Source: Anaerolineales bacterium
Lineage (GTDB): Bacteria; Chloroflexota; Anaerolineae; 4572-78; NAK82
DNA length: 5,894 nucleotides
Direction: 5' to 3'
NCBI GenBank assembly: GCA_024643945.1
Contig: JAHELX010000279.1
Span: 1-5,894, forward strand
Shown piece by piece: positions 1 through 5,810 of this stretch (the first letter of the stretch is position 1; each line of letters opens with the position of its first letter). The notes under the pieces are model-generated. The model saw nothing but the letters and a program-made list of their open reading frames with translations. It was not told the origin of the DNA and did not search any database. The position numbers and the translations under genes were made by a program.

Positions 1-850
1 CGGTGACGACAATCTCTTCGACGGCAATGCTAGACAGCCGCTCCACGGCTGGGTCGGAGAAGATGGGATGGGTAACGCACACAAACACCTGATTGGCGCC
101 GGCCCCCTTGAGGAAGACCACAGCCTGGGTCACAGTGCCGGCGGTATCAATCTCATCGTCGAAGATGATGACGTTTTTGCCTTTCACCTCCCCGATGATG
201 TTCAGGGCCTCGGATATGCTACCGTCTTGCCTTTGCACACGCCGTTTCTCGATGACGGCCAGGGGCACGTCCAATGTCTCAGCGAAGTTACGGGCGCGCT
301 TGGTGGCGCCGATGTCGGCAGCAATGACCACCGCGTCCGGGATCTTCTTAGCCCGAAAGTGATCGCTGAGCATGTGGAAGGCGGTCAGTTCATCCACCGG
401 GATACTGAAGAAGCCCTGAATCTGGCCGGCGTGCAGGTCCAGGGTGAGAAAGCGGCCGGCGCCCGCCGTCGAGATGAGATCGGCCACCAACCGGGCGGTG
501 ATGGGCACCCGCGGTTGATCTTTTTTATCGGTACGTCCGTAACCATAGTAAGGCACCACGGCCGTAATGCGTCCGGCTGAGTCGCGGCGCAGCGTGTCCA
601 TCATGATCAAGAGTTCCATCAGGTTGTCATTCACCGATGCCGTAACCCCATCTTCGCGCTCAGTAGCGCAGGTCGGCTGGATCACGAACACATCCTTGCC
701 CCGCACGCTGGCGTGCAGCCGACAAAAGATGTTTTGATTGGGGAACTTGAAGACATCGGCTCCAATGAGAGGTACGTTTAACTGACGGCTGATGGCCTCG
801 GCCAGGGGCCGATTGGCCGTCCCGCTCAAGAGTGCAATCTCACCATACAT
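1..850 (-). CDS. prs: Ribose-phosphate pyrophosphokinase (PRPP synthetase), 3' end cut off by the window
   Basis: Transfers pyrophosphate from ATP to ribose 5-phosphate to make PRPP, the precursor of purines, pyrimidines, NAD, His and Trp; cytosolic. I translated 283 codons from ATG at 850 with no stop; family members are about 310-320 residues, so roughly 30 C-terminal residues are missing. Visible motifs: NDNLMEL (75-81), PYYGYGR (100-106), PRVPITARLVADL (113-125), DLHAGQIQGFF (138-148, with the conserved His140), the flexible-loop KRR (202-204) and the PRPP-binding loop DDEIDTAGT (231-239; usually DDMIDTGGT). Two oddities: the usual FSDGE ATP-contact motif reads FPNQN (36-40), and about eight extra residues (around 63-71) precede NDNLMEL. 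It is clearly in the PRPP synthetase family, but of a divergent type; whether it is the main housekeeping enzyme is not certain. A GGGAGA at 862-867 lies 11 bases upstream of the ATG. Confidence 0.9.
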   Translation of the reverse strand, partial: MYGEIALLSGTANRPLAEAISRQLNVPLIGADVFKFPNQNIFCRLHASVRGKDVFVIQPTCATEREDGVTASVNDNLMELLIMMDTLRRDSAGRITAVVPYYGYGRTDKKDQPRVPITARLVADLISTAGAGRFLTLDLHAGQIQGFFSIPVDELTAFHMLSDHFRAKKIPDAVVIAADIGATKRARNFAETLDVPLAVIEKRRVQRQDGSISEALNIIGEVKGKNVIIFDDEIDTAGTVTQAVVFLKGAGANQVFVCVTHPIFSDPAVERLSSIAVEEIVVT

Positions 851-887
851 TGGTTCGTCCGTCTCCCACCAGGAAGATATATGCATC

Positions 888-916
888 ATCACAGGCTGTC
901 GCTACTGTCTTGACAA
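888..916 (-). promoter_or_regulatory. Candidate sigma70-type promoter for prs
   Basis: On the minus strand TTGTCA (911-916) is followed after exactly 17 bases by TGTGAT (888-893, four of six consensus positions). The predicted start near 881 would leave a leader of about 30 bases containing the GGGAGA ribosome binding site at 862-867. The -35 box is good and the -10 box is weak, so this is a candidate only. It would make prs independent of the upstream operon. Confidence 0.3.
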
Positions 917-954
917 ATAGCTGGGGGCCAGGGGCTGGGAAGTGAAGCTAATAA

Positions 955-989
955 GCGATTGATGATCAGCGCATGGCCGGCATCAACGC
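955..989 (-). terminator. Hairpin downstream of the phosphatase gene, possible weak terminator
   Basis: The arms GCGATTGATG (955-964) and CATCAACGC (981-989) are complementary apart from one bulged base, with a 16-base loop that itself contains GCCGGC. It begins 21 bases after the phosphatase stop codon. The bases that follow on the minus strand are mildly T-rich (TTATTAGCTT) but there is no proper U tract, so a classical intrinsic terminator is not shown. It may instead be a 3'-end stabilising hairpin. Confidence 0.3.
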
Positions 990-1010
990 AATGGTGGCCC
1001 CGATTGAGGT

Positions 1011-1685
1011 TCATTTCACCGGATCATTCCTCCAGTCCTCATTGGCACCCCTCAGGTGACAGGTATCGTTGAGCAAAAGGACTCGATAGCTGCCCGCCCG
1101 GATGCGCACCAGGCTGACCGACGCATTGTCAAAGGCGAAGGCGCGCCGCACCTGCTGCCCGTTCCCCAAAGGGGACCTATGGACAATGCCCAGCCACGAG
1201 CGCAGGCAGGCATCCAACGAGCCGCCGTGAGCCACCACCACCACATTGGCGCCCTCGTCCATCCCGGCAACAATTTCGTCCATCACTGCCCGCACACGCC
1301 TGACGAAGGTGGGATCACCCTCTTCGCCGGCCAAAGGTCTCCAGACCTGGTTCACTTCCCAGGCGGCCTGCACGGTGGGAAAGCGGGTCACGATGTCGTC
1401 GGGGGTCAGGCCATTGAGTGGGCCAAAGTTATATTCTTTAAGGCGCGCGTCGAACCGAACCGGCAGATCCAGCGCGCGACTGATGATCTGGGCTGTTTCG
1501 GCAGCCCGTTGCAGCGGACTGGCAACTAACTCGTGGATGGGCCCCTCCTGGGCCAATCGCTCGGCCAGGTGCGCCGCCTGCCGCCGCCCCACATCGGTCA
1601 GCGGATAGTCGGCCCAACCCTGGACGCGCCGCTCCAGGTTGCCTTGTGATTCACCGTGTCGAATCAGCCACAGATACCTGCTCAT
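1011..1685 (-). CDS. Histidine phosphatase superfamily (phosphoglycerate mutase-like) protein
   Basis: A 224-residue cytosolic protein of the histidine phosphatase branch that includes cofactor-dependent phosphoglycerate mutase and broad phosphatases such as alpha-ribazole phosphatase (CobC) and PhoE. The N-terminal LIRHGESQGN places the phospho-accepting His at 10 after Arg9. The other expected catalytic residues are present: Arg60 in SPLQRAAETA, Glu84 in LKEYNFG, and the second His153 in VVAHGG. The length fits the phosphatase branch. The substrate cannot be read from sequence; a CobC-like role would fit a B12 neighbourhood, but nothing specific supports it. The start ATG overlaps the carbonic anhydrase stop as ATGA (1682-1685). 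No strong Shine-Dalgarno is visible, so translation is probably coupled to the upstream gene. Confidence 0.88.
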   Translation of the reverse strand: MSRYLWLIRHGESQGNLERRVQGWADYPLTDVGRRQAAHLAERLAQEGPIHELVASPLQRAAETAQIISRALDLPVRFDARLKEYNFGPLNGLTPDDIVTRFPTVQAAWEVNQVWRPLAGEEGDPTFVRRVRAVMDEIVAGMDEGANVVVVAHGGSLDACLRSWLGIVHRSPLGNGQQVRRAFAFDNASVSLVRIRAGSYRVLLLNDTCHLRGANEDWRNDPVK

Positions 1686-2324
1686 GCCGTCGCCTGGAAG
1701 GATGCGGGGGAGAAGTTCACAAAGCTGCCCTGGGTCGCATCATAAAAGCTCATCTGGCGCTCGGCCAGATCGTAGACCCAGCCATGCAGTTCCAGCCGGT
1801 TCTCGACCAGCGCGCGACGCACCGCATCGTAGGTCTGGAGATTCTCCAGTTGCAGCAACACGTTCTCCTCGACGATAGCTCGGTGACGGGCGTCGTCAAC
1901 CAGACCACCGCGTGCATCTATCTGGGTCTGAGCCGGGCGGGCGAACTCAATCCAGCCAGCGCTGGCCGGCTCGGCGGCCATGTCTACCGGATGATCCAGG
2001 GCCTTGATGCCGCCGCAGTCGGTGTGCCCGCAGATGATGAGGTGTTTTACTTTGAGATGCAATACGGCATATTCCAGCGCGGCGCCGACAGCATTTTGTC
2101 CGGTGCCGTAGGGCGGCACGATGTTGGCCACCACCCGGGCCACAAACAGGTCTCCTGGCCGGGCGCCGGCCAGGAGCTCGGGCACCACCCGGGAATCGCA
2201 ACAGCCGATGAACATCACATCCGGGGACTGGTCTTGGCGTGCCAGCATGTCCAGCAACTCCCGTTCATTCTCGAAAAAAGTCCGTGCGTAACGCGTGCGA
2301 GCGTTCCAGGATGGGATCAGCCAT
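1682..2324 (-). CDS. Beta-class carbonic anhydrase, with an apparent +1 frameshift near the N-terminus
   Basis: Zinc enzyme interconverting CO2 and bicarbonate. The open frame from 2257 to the stop holds the whole catalytic core: zinc ligand Cys plus the Asp-Arg dyad in IGCCDSRVVP, and His and Cys ligands in CGHTDCGG (Cys41, Asp43, Arg45, His100, Cys103 in the restored numbering). It ends with the family-typical HGWVYDL and FYD segments. The best start is ATG at 2324, with AGGTGA (2330-2335) five bases upstream and overlapping the end of the GTPase gene by 8 bp. That frame reads MADPILERSHALRTDFFRE and then stops. Removing one T from the run of six at 2274-2279 restores a continuous 213-residue protein of normal length (…RTDFFENERELLDML…). 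As written, translation would need frameshifting or an internal start such as ATG 2248, which has GGGAG 9 bases upstream. It may be a sequencing error, a recent mutation or a real recoding site. Confidence 0.85.
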
Positions 2325-3363
2325 GTTTATCACCTGCCATCAACTGCCGGGCAGCAGTATAAGGGTCAAGTTCACGGTCGGCGAGTTGTGCCACCAAACT
2401 GGCCAGGCGGGCCTGGTCCACGTCGTGCAGCAGGCGGTTCATCAACTCGTCGCGCAGGACGTGTTCCAATTCGTTGGCCAGACGAATCCGGTTGCGGCGA
2501 GCCAGTTCTTGGGTTGACTCCAGGTATTGGCGGTGATCGGCAATGGCCTGTACCAATTCGAGTATCCCGTCTCCGCGCAGGGCGATAGTTTTTACGATGG
2601 GAGGTCGCCAGTCGCCATGCACTGGGGTAGCACCATTGGAAGAGCTGGATTCTGCAGTGGTGGGTTGTGGGACGATCTGAGCTACTTCCATCAACCGCCC
2701 GTGGTGCATCACCCTCTGCGAAGGAGCGGCGTGGCCCAGATCAAGCATCATCTCCAGGGCGTTAGCGGTGCGGTCGGCACCTTCGCGATCGGCTTTGTTG
2801 ACGGCGAACACGTCGGCGATTTCGAGAATACCGGCCTTGATGGCCTGCACCTCGTCGCCCATCCCCGGCGCTTCGACCACGACGATGGTGTGTGCCGTCT
2901 GGGCAATCTCTACCTCACTCTGCCCGGCACCGACCGTTTCGACGATGATCACGTCAAAGCCGGCCGCATCAAGCACCTTGATGACATCGGCGGTGGCCCG
3001 GGCCAATCCCCCCAGACTGCCCCGAGTAGCCATGCTGCGCACAAAAATGCCGGGGTCCCCAGCCAGATCGCGCATGCGGATGCGATCGCCCAGGATGGCG
3101 CCACCCGAGAAAGGGCTGGTAGGATCGACCGCAACGACGCCCACCTGGCGACCGGCGGCACGGTAGGCTTTGCTCAACTCGTTGACCAGGGTGCTCTTGC
3201 CAGTGCCGGGTGCGCCGGTGACGCCGATAATGTGCGCCTGGCCGGTGTGGGGATAGAGCTGCGCCAGGTCAGTGCAAGCCTCGTCCCCATCGTTTTCGAT
3301 GCGGGTGATGAGTCGAGCGATAGCCCGGCGGTCACCGGAGAGAACTGCTTCAACTAATTTCAT
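2317..3363 (-). CDS. MeaB/ArgK-family GTPase, chaperone of the B12-dependent acyl-CoA mutase
   Basis: P-loop G3E-family GTPase that gates delivery of adenosylcobalamin to the mutase and protects it from inactivation; in isobutyryl-CoA mutase clusters the homologue is called MeaI. From ATG 3363 it has 348 residues, normal for the family. Visible: P-loop GAPGTGKST (about 50-58), VDPTSPFSGGAILGDR (79-94), FVRSMATRGSLGG (107-119), VETVGAGQSE (141-150), EAPGMGDE (164-171) and the base-specificity motif NKAD (189-192). A low-complexity Thr/Ser-rich stretch (about 235-245) lies in a linker before the WRPPIVKT segment. A TTG two codons upstream (3369) is an alternative start; neither has a strong ribosome binding site. 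It follows the small mutase subunit after 112 bases and overlaps the carbonic anhydrase start. The context indicates that it serves the Icm-like mutase encoded here. It was formerly misnamed ArgK, an arginine transport kinase. Confidence 0.93.
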   Translation of the reverse strand: MKLVEAVLSGDRRAIARLITRIENDGDEACTDLAQLYPHTGQAHIIGVTGAPGTGKSTLVNELSKAYRAAGRQVGVVAVDPTSPFSGGAILGDRIRMRDLAGDPGIFVRSMATRGSLGGLARATADVIKVLDAAGFDVIIVETVGAGQSEVEIAQTAHTIVVVEAPGMGDEVQAIKAGILEIADVFAVNKADREGADRTANALEMMLDLGHAAPSQRVMHHGRLMEVAQIVPQPTTAESSSSNGATPVHGDWRPPIVKTIALRGDGILELVQAIADHRQYLESTQELARRNRIRLANELEHVLRDELMNRLLHDVDQARLASLVAQLADRELDPYTAARQLMAGDKHG

Positions 3364-3403
3364 ATCCAACGTCCATACGGGTCATATGCTGTAGCCAACG
3401 CAC
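3350..3403 (-). CDS. Possible 17-codon leader ORF overlapping the GTPase start
   Basis: Starting at GTG 3403, eight bases after the strongest Shine-Dalgarno in this gap (GGGGAGGT, 3412-3419), a short frame VRWLQHMTRMDVGYEIS ends with TGA at 3350-3352, inside codons 4-5 of the GTPase gene in another frame. The GTPase start has only a poor ribosome binding site of its own, so translation of this leader could bring ribosomes to it by coupling. There is no homology or codon evidence that a peptide is made. The same Shine-Dalgarno could be a coincidence of the G-rich hairpin it lies in. Confidence 0.2.
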   Translation of the reverse strand: MRWLQHMTRMDVGYEIS

Positions 3404-3475: not shown

Positions 3476-3907
3476 TCACGCGCGGGTATTATATCTCCTC
3501 ACATGCTCCTGGATGAATTTAACGATGTCTTCAATGAGGGTGCCGGGCCCAAAAATGCCGTGCACGCCAGCCTCTTTAAGGAGGGGCAGGTCCTCATCAG
3601 GTATGATCCCCCCGGCGATGACGAGGACATCGTCCATGTCATTTTCGCGCAGCAAGGCAACGATGCGGGGCAGCAACACCATGTGGGCGCCACTCAGCAC
3701 CGAGAGGCCGACCACATCCACGTCTTCCTGCAAAGCGGCCTCGGCAATCATCTCTGGCGTCTGGCGCAGGCCCGTGTAGATAACTTCCATGCCGGCGTCG
3801 CGCAGGGCCCGGGCGACGACCTTAGCTCCCCGGTCATGGCCGTCCAGCCCGGGCTTGGCAACCAGGACGCGGATCTTTCGCTTGGTGTTGGGACGATGTT
3901 CGCTCAT
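3476..3907 (-). CDS. icmB: Small cobalamin-binding subunit of the acyl-CoA mutase (isobutyryl-CoA mutase-like)
   Basis: The 143-residue B12-binding subunit that pairs with the large catalytic subunit encoded upstream. It is a single flavodoxin-like cobalamin-binding domain. GLDGHDRG (20-27) contains the D-x-H-x-x-G motif, with His24 as the lower axial cobalt ligand, followed by GLSVLSG (67-73) and VIAGG (96-100), which line the cofactor tail pocket. Free-standing small subunits are usually about 135-145 residues, so it is complete. ATG 3907 was chosen because AGGAG (3917-3921) lies nine bases upstream; the frame is open for 18 more codons to a TTG, which lacks support. Whether to call it icmB or a methylmalonyl-CoA mutase small subunit depends on the partner, whose active site points to Icm. 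It has its own strong promoter at 4000-4028, unlike a simple two-gene operon. Confidence 0.92.
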
Positions 3908-4028: not shown

Positions 4029-4034
4029 TGAGTG

Positions 4035-4127
4035 GCTAGTACCCCATCACAGGGATCATGATATGATACAGTTTACGCCCATCAGGCCGAATCTTACTTA
4101 TCAACATCACTTTGATGGGGCACTAGC
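4035..4127. repeat. Inverted repeat with 15-bp arms between icmA and icmB
   Basis: The left arm GCTAGTACCCCATCA (4035-4049) and right arm TGATGGGGCACTAGC (4113-4127) are complementary with one exception; in minus-strand RNA that exception is a G-U pair, so the stem is fully paired in the transcribed direction. The 63-base loop contains another CCCATCA (4078-4084) that could compete for the right arm, and an ATCATGAT palindrome (4054-4061). It begins three bases after the icmA stop and ends six bases before the -35 box. No U tract follows, so it is not a classical intrinsic terminator. It may be a transcript-end hairpin, a regulatory structure or a remnant mini-element (TA occurs at both arm ends). 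Confidence 0.65.
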
Positions 4128-4130
4128 TTA

Positions 4131-5810
4131 CTACACAATCACCGGCTCACGGTATTCACCAAAGACGCGGCGAAAGACGCCCATAATCTCACCCAGGGTA
4201 GCATAGGCGTGGACCGCTTCCAGGATGGGAGGCATCAAGTTCACGCGGTCTCGGGCAGCATCTTCCAGGCGGGCCAAAGCGGCTTGCGTGGCACTATTGT
4301 CGCGTTCACCCCGGACACGCTCCAGGCGGGCCACCTGCCGGTCATAGCCTTGGGGATCCATCTCTAGCAAGGGGATGGTCAGAGGCTCATCGGAGGCGTA
4401 GTCGTTGACACCAACGATGATGCGCTGGTGCGTGTCTACTTCGTGTTGATAGCGATAGGCGGCATCGGCGATTTCACGCTGGAAGAAACCGGCTTCGATG
4501 GCCCGGATGACGCCCCCCAGCTTTTGGATGCGATCAAAGTACTCGTAGGCCTGGCCCTCAAGACGATTGGTCATGGCCTCGACGAAGTAGCTGCCAGCCA
4601 GCGGATCCACCGTGTTGGTCACGCCGCTTTCGTGGGCGATGATCTGCTGGGTACGCAGGGCGACGCGCGCGGCCAGTTCGCCGGGCAGGGCCAGGGCCTC
4701 GTCCATGCTGTTGGTATGCAGTGACTGCGTGCCGCCCAGCACCGCTGCCAGCGCCTGGATGGCAACCCGAGCCACGTTGTTCTCCGGTTGCTGGGCGGTA
4801 AGGCTCACGCCAGCCGTCTGAGTGTGGAAACGCAGCAGCCACGTGCGTGGGTTCTTGGCGCTGAAGGTCTCTTTCATCTCGCGCGCCCAGATGCGCCGGG
4901 CAGCGCGGTATTTGGCGATCTCTTCAAAGAAGTCGTTGTGCGCGTTGAAGAAGAAAGAGAGGCGAGAGGCGAACTCGTCGACGTCGAGCCCGCGCTCGAT
5001 GCCCCAGCGCACGTACTCAAAGCCGTCGGCCAGGGTAAAAGCCAATTCTTGGGCGGCGGTGCTGCCTGCCTCGCGGATGTGGTAGCCGCTGATCGAAATA
5101 GTGTTCCATTTGGGCAGGTATTGGCTACCATATTCAAAGGTATCCACCACCAGGCGCATGCTGGGTTTGGGCGGGAAGATATATTCCTTTTGGGCAATGT
5201 ATTCCTTCAGGATATCGTTTTGGATAGTGCCTCCCAGTAGTTCTTTGGGGATACCCCTTCGCTCGGCAGCGGCGATGTACATAGCCCAAATGGCAGCTGC
5301 CGGGCTATTGATGGTCATGCTGGTAGTGATGCGATCCAGGGGTAGACCCTCAAGCAGGATTTCCATGTCGGCCAGGGACGATACGGCGACGCCGCATTTG
5401 CCGAATTCGCCCAGCGCTTCGGGAGCATCGGTATCGTAACCATAAAGGGTGGGCAAATCGAAAGCAATGGAGAGACCCGTTTGCCCCTGGTCCAGGAGAT
5501 ATTTGAAGCGCTGGTTGGTCTCCTCAGCGGTACCAAAGCCGGCGAACATTCGCATGGTCCATAGCCTGCCCCGGTGTCCGGTAGCATGGATGCCACGCGT
5601 GTAGGGATACTCACCTGGGAATCCCAAATCACGCATATAGTCGAAATCGGAGAGGTCGGCCGGGGTGTAGAGTCGATCCACCGATTCGCCAGAGATAGTA
5701 GTAAACTCGTCAGATCGCTCCGGTCGCCGAGCCAGCGTCTCGTGAAGCGTCGTTTCTTGCCACCTGTCCCTGGCTCGACGTATCTCGTCTAACTTGTTCT
5801 GGTCAAACAT
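4131..5810 (-). CDS. icmA: Acyl-CoA mutase large subunit, isobutyryl-CoA mutase type (IcmA-like)
   Basis: Catalytic TIM-barrel subunit of an adenosylcobalamin-dependent acyl-CoA mutase, 559 residues, without the C-terminal B12 domain, which the separate icmB supplies. Family segments in order: [10 protein letters not shown] (64-73), RGRLWTMR (80-87), [13 protein letters not shown] (109-121), [11 protein letters not shown] (194-204), [11 protein letters not shown] (239-249), [15 protein letters not shown] (283-297), RFHTQTAG (327-334), [10 protein letters not shown] (358-367). Numbering happens to match Propionibacterium methylmalonyl-CoA mutase as I recall it: His244 and Gln197 are kept, but Tyr89 is Phe89 and Arg207 is Gln207. 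That pair is the signature of isobutyryl-CoA mutase, and Arg207 is what grips the methylmalonyl carboxylate. EYIAQKE and HATGHRGR also resemble IcmA. Isovaleryl/pivalyl-CoA activity remains possible; 2-hydroxyisobutyryl-CoA mutase has Ile at 89. ATG 5810 was preferred over ATG 5843 because GGGAGG (5818-5823) lies seven bases upstream. It ends with tandem TAG-TAA stops. Confidence 0.93.

Follow-up and report, generated by a model that had tools for sequence, protein, structure and literature searches.

The window analyzed here, a stretch of 5,894 nucleotides from an Anaerolineales bacterium, carries on its minus strand a cluster of three genes in the order large subunit (5810-4131), small subunit (3907-3476) and MeaB (3369-2317), which together have the makeup predicted for an adenosylcobalamin (AdoCbl)-dependent acyl-CoA mutase. 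The features that matter for what follows are these.

4131-5810, minus strand: predicted large (substrate-binding) subunit of an IcmA-type AdoCbl-dependent acyl-CoA mutase, 559 aa, without a B12 domain
5544-5546, minus strand: codon for Phe89 of the large subunit (Tyr in methylmalonyl-CoA mutase, MCM), in the motif RLWTMRMF
5190-5192, minus strand: codon for Gln207 of the large subunit (Arg in MCM), in the motif EYIAQKE
5079-5081, minus strand: codon for His244 of the large subunit, in the motif SGYH, kept in all 131 aligned sequences
3476-3907, minus strand: small AdoCbl-binding subunit, 143 aa from the ATG at 3907, with GAGGAG ahead of that ATG
3827-3844, minus strand: DGHDRG in the small subunit, as read from the translation
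2317-3369, minus strand: predicted MeaB-type GTPase chaperone that would load AdoCbl (PF03308, 313.5 bits; TIGR00750, 363.7 bits, above cut-off)

The large-subunit frame opens with an ATG at 5810 that is preceded by AGGAGG, and PF01642 (744.7 bits) is the sole Pfam family it matches at E values up to 1e-5; TIGR00641 scores 771 bits. The small subunit matches PF02310 (93.3 bits) and TIGR00640 (183.9 bits), and its DGHDRG is what we take to be the DxHxxG cobalt-ligand motif; the mechanically called open reading frame runs on past the ATG at 3907, to 3961. For MeaB, the listed start is a TTG at 3369, with an alternative ATG at 3363. After MeaB, on the same strand, the first gene encodes a beta-carbonic anhydrase; next comes one for a histidine phosphatase/phosphoglycerate-mutase-like protein, and last a ribose-phosphate diphosphokinase gene truncated by the window's edge. 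The histidine phosphatase (6 matches) and the diphosphokinase (9), at window positions 1-1685, recur among 40 searched regions around relatives' mutase genes. The carbonic anhydrase frame, listed from 2257, apparently lacks its N-terminus (window positions 2257-2323); by eye, the stretch upstream resembles the missing part read in a different frame, and six consecutive A on the plus strand lie between the two, which could reflect a sequencing error or a broken gene. The spacer between the genes for the two subunits holds a 93-base inverted repeat (4035-4127) with 29-nt arms that are 83% complementary, and the minus-strand RNA of 4030-4130 has a predicted fold of -43.2 kcal/mol (z -5.8). The repeat is possibly a small mobile element, or else a hairpin that serves in processing or stability; a 14-base core of its arm found no exact match among 197 loci, and the window gave no Rfam match at gathering thresholds. 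The window's nearest named relatives belong to Anaerolineae/Chloroflexota (L001, 78% identical).

MCM binds the free carboxylate of its substrate, methylmalonyl-CoA, through Arg207 and Tyr89. The first-pass annotation had read Phe89 and Gln207 in the large subunit, with His244 retained, and all three assignments hold, since the protein's own numbering agrees with alignment to solved structures of MCM and of 2-hydroxyisobutyryl-CoA mutase (HCM); in the PDB alignments, Phe89 and Gln207 face the Tyr and Arg of the Propionibacterium shermanii and human MCMs, with the His in common. The same Phe/Gln/His set was found in 120 of 120 window-like database proteins, among the matches listed (8000 scored). 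Of 80 related loci kept by similarity (L001-L080), 79 have Phe/Gln and one, L063, has Tyr/Arg. Judged on these sequences, the pair is fixed in the window's group and not a product of chance. It had also been claimed that IcmA and IcmF carry Phe and Gln at these positions, and this proved correct for 120 of 120 IcmA-group proteins (again among the matches listed) and for 4 of 4 IcmF proteins. The IcmA group, made up of Streptomyces proteins and their kin, includes P0225, named putative isobutyryl-CoA mutase A; the four IcmF proteins come from the phylum of genome G035 (Bacteroidota by its locus title) and score above the curated NF045497 cut-off. Tyr/Arg, on the other hand, is what stands in the Ilyobacter polytropus MCM, recognizable by its adjoining epimerase and decarboxylase genes, and in E. 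coli ScpA. In HCM-type proteins, residue 89 is Ile or Val, Gln207 is present and, in the window's numbering, position 116 is Asp (4 of 4, one of them the solved 4r3u), and because HCM carries Gln207 too, that residue alone does not make an isobutyryl-CoA mutase (ICM). Xaut_5043, presumably a pivalyl-CoA mutase, has Leu/Asn.

That acyl-CoA mutases can be told apart by a pair of specificity sites, occupied in MCM by Tyr and Arg, is stated in PMC7238569, which quotes Jost et al. 2015. In our 131-sequence alignment, columns 89 and 207 were the sole 2 of 559 window positions that divide 92 Phe/Gln sequences from 28 Tyr/Arg sequences at at least 90% each, a count that left out two haloarchaeal and four IcmF sequences with Phe/Gln. 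Since the two groups were defined by these very columns, the informative part is the lack of a third. Met88 (RMF, not RQF) was considered as a mark of special function and discarded, as the Tyr/Arg mutases of Ilyobacter and Acetoanaerobium also have it. The structure model of the large subunit (mean pLDDT 74.9) yields only the expected fold, matching HCM, MCM and IcmF structures; it is poor near residue 89, with pLDDT below 50 at residues 71-90.

Ancestry was approached with two trees. The FastTree analysis of 131 sequences, made without duplicate loci, the partial L059 and one L082 fragment, and including 6 of the 120 window-like and 6 of the 120 IcmA-group database proteins, placed the window and IcmA together in a clade made up of 92 Phe/Gln sequences (support 0.965) and set apart a clade of 27 Tyr/Arg sequences that contains the human, P. 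shermanii, E. coli and Sinorhizobium meliloti MCMs (0.95). A divergent Tyr/Arg sequence (L121) and the two haloarchaeal Phe/Gln sequences lie outside both clades, IcmF forms a far outgroup, and the deeper forks are weakly supported. In the tree comparison that had been proposed for it, then, the window protein falls outside the clade of characterized MCMs and on the same side as Streptomyces IcmA. A quick IQ-TREE run on 47 chosen rows, without IcmF, Xaut_5043 and L144 and with columns 89 and 207 removed, still kept every Tyr/Arg row apart from every Gln207 row (SH-aLRT 93); the window sits with the Gln207 enzymes, Streptomyces IcmA and HCM, and IcmA is on a long branch away from it. AU tests, for which the groups were picked after the first tree had been seen, rejected joining the window to the Tyr/Arg rows (p = 2e-9) and joining IcmA to them (p = 0.018), and mildly rejected a single clade of all Phe/Gln rows (p = 0.035). 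The notion of a recent, local residue change inside Anaerolineae was likewise discarded, as uniting both Anaerolineae kinds in one clade was rejected (p = 9e-6). Raw identity would mislead on this kinship: the window large subunit is 55-63% identical to short Tyr/Arg mutases, 52% to IcmA, 50% to HCM, 39% to Xaut_5043 and 31-37% to IcmF.

Several other sequences in this material deserve mention in their own right. L115 and L146, haloarchaeal Phe/Gln mutases from the Haloterrigena plasmid pHTUR01, group with the HCM side and not with IcmA in the 47-row tree. L144, from Tritonibacter, is a Tyr/Arg sequence without annotation that may be an ethylmalonyl-CoA mutase. L113, on plasmid pB of S. meliloti LMB1, is an HCM-like mutase carrying Val89 and Asp116; it adjoins genes for a small subunit, MeaB, an enoyl-CoA hydratase and an AMP-binding protein, and is possibly of another specificity. 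In genome G001, L121 (contig C707) is a third Tyr/Arg mutase, divergent and about 540 aa long, whose contig also carries a small subunit and a gene that resembles epimerase but scores below cut-off; G157, G198 and G221 also hold divergent mutase copies with a small subunit on their own contig.

Set against the known systems, the window most resembles IcmA/IcmB of Streptomyces, with which it shares a stand-alone large subunit some 560 aa long, Phe89/Gln207/His244, the side of the tree, and a separate small B12 subunit (in the window, the PF02310 protein with DxHxxG at 3476-3907, minus strand; in Streptomyces ICM, presumably IcmB). It differs in its low identity to IcmA, in an insert near residue 433 that appears in two aligned IcmA-group rows, in having MeaB in the cluster and, for some relatives of the window, in a Tyr/Arg mutase nearby. 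IcmF has the Phe/Gln pair and the same three modules (B12 domain, G-protein, mutase), but fused in one chain of about 1100 aa where the window has three genes, and the window large subunit scores 347 bits on NF045497, whose cut-off is 1500. With MCM the window shares the fold, His244, the B12 chemistry and MeaB, whereas Phe/Gln replaces Tyr89/Arg207, and the clade is separate, with union rejected. HcmA/HcmB shares Gln207, a separate small subunit and half of the residues overall, but the window has Phe89 and Ala116 in place of Ile/Val and Asp. By residues, tree, and domain or score, membership of the window protein in MCM, HCM or IcmF was rejected, as was the pivalyl-CoA mutase type, given the Leu/Asn of Xaut_5043 and its low identity.

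The window ends 84 bases upstream of the large-subunit gene. Gene order was compared in relatives. Thirteen regions (L147-L159) were picked because both large-subunit genes lie within about 10 kb on one contig, and all 13 show the same succession on one strand: Tyr/Arg large subunit, epimerase, Phe/Gln large subunit. The small subunit comes next in 11 of them (the contig of L154 ends there), followed by MeaB in 10; a carboxyltransferase (PCCB) lies ahead in 6 of the 13, and genes for a biotin carrier, a carboxylase and a sodium-pump decarboxylase recur in some. A solo order of Phe/Gln large subunit, small subunit and MeaB, like that of the window, is found for example in L160, L162-L164, L167-L169 and L172. 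Of the 9 regions fetched from Tyr/Arg-only genomes, two (L181 and L185) have the small subunit and MeaB after the epimerase, and their small subunits are 72-74% identical to the window's. Small subunits beside Phe/Gln genes are 68-79% identical to it over nearly full length, and that of Methylibium (HCM type) is 52% identical. As the L181 and L185 proteins fall in the range of those associated with Phe/Gln, the same small subunit accompanies either large one. The epimerase keeps mostly to the Tyr/Arg kind, being present in 7 of 9 Tyr/Arg-only regions as against 2 of 18 fetched Phe/Gln regions without a Tyr/Arg gene. Seen genome by genome, it is beside the Tyr/Arg gene in G001, G006, G007, G009, G010 and G015, and beside the Phe/Gln gene in G003, G012 and G016.

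Subunits were also counted genome by genome. Among 18 genomes with loci of the family, 16 have at least two large-subunit places, and 17 have one stand-alone small subunit above cut-off; G003 has none, and G012 and G013 have a second small subunit inside a fused frame. In the larger survey, three profiles, A1 (Phe/Gln), A2 (Tyr/Arg) and TIGR00640, were run on 80 Anaerolineae genomes (the class of G010), large subunits being classed by score difference (above 100 bits Phe/Gln, below -15 Tyr/Arg; ten in between were called "other," and two fragments were placed by hand). The residues read in 61 mutase frames of the fetched regions, 33 Phe/Gln and 28 Tyr/Arg, all match the profile class. Both kinds of large subunit are present in 45 of the 80 genomes. 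A single small subunit is found in 40 of these and two in the other five; when three fragments of 34-43 profile positions (in G185, G209 and G228) are counted, one small subunit is found in 38 of the 45. In G217, one of the two is the C-terminal part of a fused frame of 749 aa; G198 and G221 carry their second small subunit next to a third, divergent mutase, and the remaining genomes with two are G184 and G185. The other 35 genomes comprise 17 with Tyr/Arg and no Phe/Gln (accompanied in one genome by an "other" copy), five with Phe/Gln only, three with Phe/Gln and an "other" copy, and ten without a large subunit at the survey threshold. Many of these 80 assemblies are in numerous contigs and come without a stated completeness. 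The strongest single case is G162, where a contig of 3,316,678 bases approximates the whole 3.3-Mb assembly: it encodes a Phe/Gln large subunit and a Tyr/Arg large subunit, the latter without a B12 domain, and its single PF02310 match at E values up to 1e-6 is the small subunit, followed by MeaB. Outside Anaerolineae, in a table of 18 genomes read by eye (B12 matches above 50 bits), 11 have two large-subunit places, counted whatever their residue class, and one small subunit each, two with three large subunits have two small ones, and five have one large subunit; the 11 are archaea, Acidobacteriota, Bacteroidota and others. The presence of both large subunits with one B12 subunit, in 40 of 45 genomes and in G162, and the gene order make a shared B12 subunit likely. 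On balance, we favor the view that one stand-alone AdoCbl subunit and one MeaB serve both MCM (Tyr/Arg) and the ICM-type enzyme (Phe/Gln), so that three genes would yield two B12 mutases, maybe as a mixed oligomer, and that the window's small subunit is of this kind.

As for the enzyme itself, residues, fold family, ancestry and gene neighbors were computed, and we infer from here substrate, direction and pathway. The three genes from 5810 to 2317 on the minus strand probably encode an IcmA-type coenzyme-B12 acyl-CoA mutase, with isobutyryl-CoA/n-butyryl-CoA its most likely substrates, and the first-pass view that the protein is not MCM but IcmA-like in kind appears largely right. Since Phe89 and Gln207 replace the Tyr and Arg that hold a carboxylate, the pocket should suit a neutral acyl group, and for a pocket of that kind the interconversion of isobutyryl-CoA and n-butyryl-CoA would be the most likely reaction. 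The 559-aa subunit would bind the CoA ester and the 143-aa subunit would carry adenosylcobalamin through DxHxxG, with the MeaB GTPase loading and guarding the cofactor. As in the B12 mutase family generally, homolysis of the Co-C bond would give the 5'-deoxyadenosyl radical, which would take a hydrogen from the acyl group, and the thioester carbon would then shift to the adjoining carbon, aided by His244. Such a reaction would tie valine or isobutyrate to beta-oxidation.

The distribution of the epimerase speaks for the IcmA-type reading. Against it stand the raw identity, which is nearer to short Tyr/Arg mutases than to IcmA, the mild rejection of a single Phe/Gln clade, the distance to IcmF, the structurally solved ICM, the poor model near residue 89, the presence of a dehydrogenase of the usual valine route in part of the Phe/Gln genomes (see below), and the epimerase that adjoins the Phe/Gln gene in some genomes. 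A main substrate other than isobutyryl-CoA, handled by the same ICM-type mechanism, is a lesser but real possibility: the Phe/Gln pair indicates no more than a pocket that does not hold a carboxylate, the Streptomyces IcmA group is on its long branch away from the window, and IcmF is described in PMC10481361 as also accepting pivalyl- and isovaleryl-CoA. The candidates would be pivalyl/isovaleryl-CoA, 2-methylbutyryl/n-valeryl-CoA or longer branched acyl-CoAs. Weighing against them are the identity of Phe89/Gln207 in the window, the IcmA group and IcmF, and the difference from the Leu/Asn of Xaut_5043. That the protein is an MCM with an altered carboxylate pocket, as the Pfam and NCBIfam family names would have it, is very unlikely. 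Both Arg207 and Tyr89 are absent, the trees and the AU test contradict it, a Tyr/Arg paralogue is present by profile score in 45 of 53 Phe/Gln genomes, and the epimerase is distributed as described. In its favor are the genomes where the epimerase adjoins or lies near the Phe/Gln gene, in two of which, G003 and G203, no other mutase was found (in G203 the Phe/Gln class is by profile, and the nearby gene, in L166, is epimerase-like). These may be incomplete assemblies, yet they are compatible with an MCM function. Least probable of all is HCM, with which the window shares Gln207 and whose structure 4r3u is its best PDB match by sequence and by fold; here, Phe89 and Ala116 are opposed to the Ile/Val and Asp found in all four HCM-type sequences compared.

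The IcmA-type reading bears on annotation. The first-pass contrast of propionate versus valine/butyrate metabolism was too sharp, because most Phe/Gln genomes also hold a Tyr/Arg mutase and the two are not either/or. In 13 of the 45 two-mutase genomes, moreover, both genes lie within about 10 kb on one contig with the epimerase gene between them. Methylmalonate-semialdehyde dehydrogenase, which belongs to the usual valine route, was sought at E values up to 1e-150. It is present in 13 of the 53 Phe/Gln genomes versus 9 of 17 Tyr/Arg-only genomes, a weak difference (Fisher p = 0.038, a test that ignores kinship). Its presence in those 13 genomes means that the usual valine route is not simply replaced, and for ICM as an alternative way for isobutyryl-CoA there is at most a hint. 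Many proteins of the window's group are stored in the source database under the name methylmalonyl-CoA mutase, so that metabolic reconstructions for Anaerolineae and further uncultured groups may tally the wrong enzyme; the pathways concerned are propionate, the 3-hydroxypropionate bicycle, and valine and isobutyrate use. A look at residues 89 and 207 is enough to tell such cases apart. That IcmF is widely misannotated as MCM has already been published (PMC7764203, which quotes Cracan et al. 2010), and the residue finding is therefore modest in its newness. Among the papers listed by a literature search, none was on point for a shared small subunit, nor for ICM or isobutyrate in Anaerolineae, although published work may exist. 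It is the likely shared B12 subunit that is the more noteworthy part. If the small subunit is indeed shared, there would be more B12 mutases than counts of small subunits suggest, and the lone B12 subunit would serve as a natural experiment in how docking is preserved as specificity shifts.
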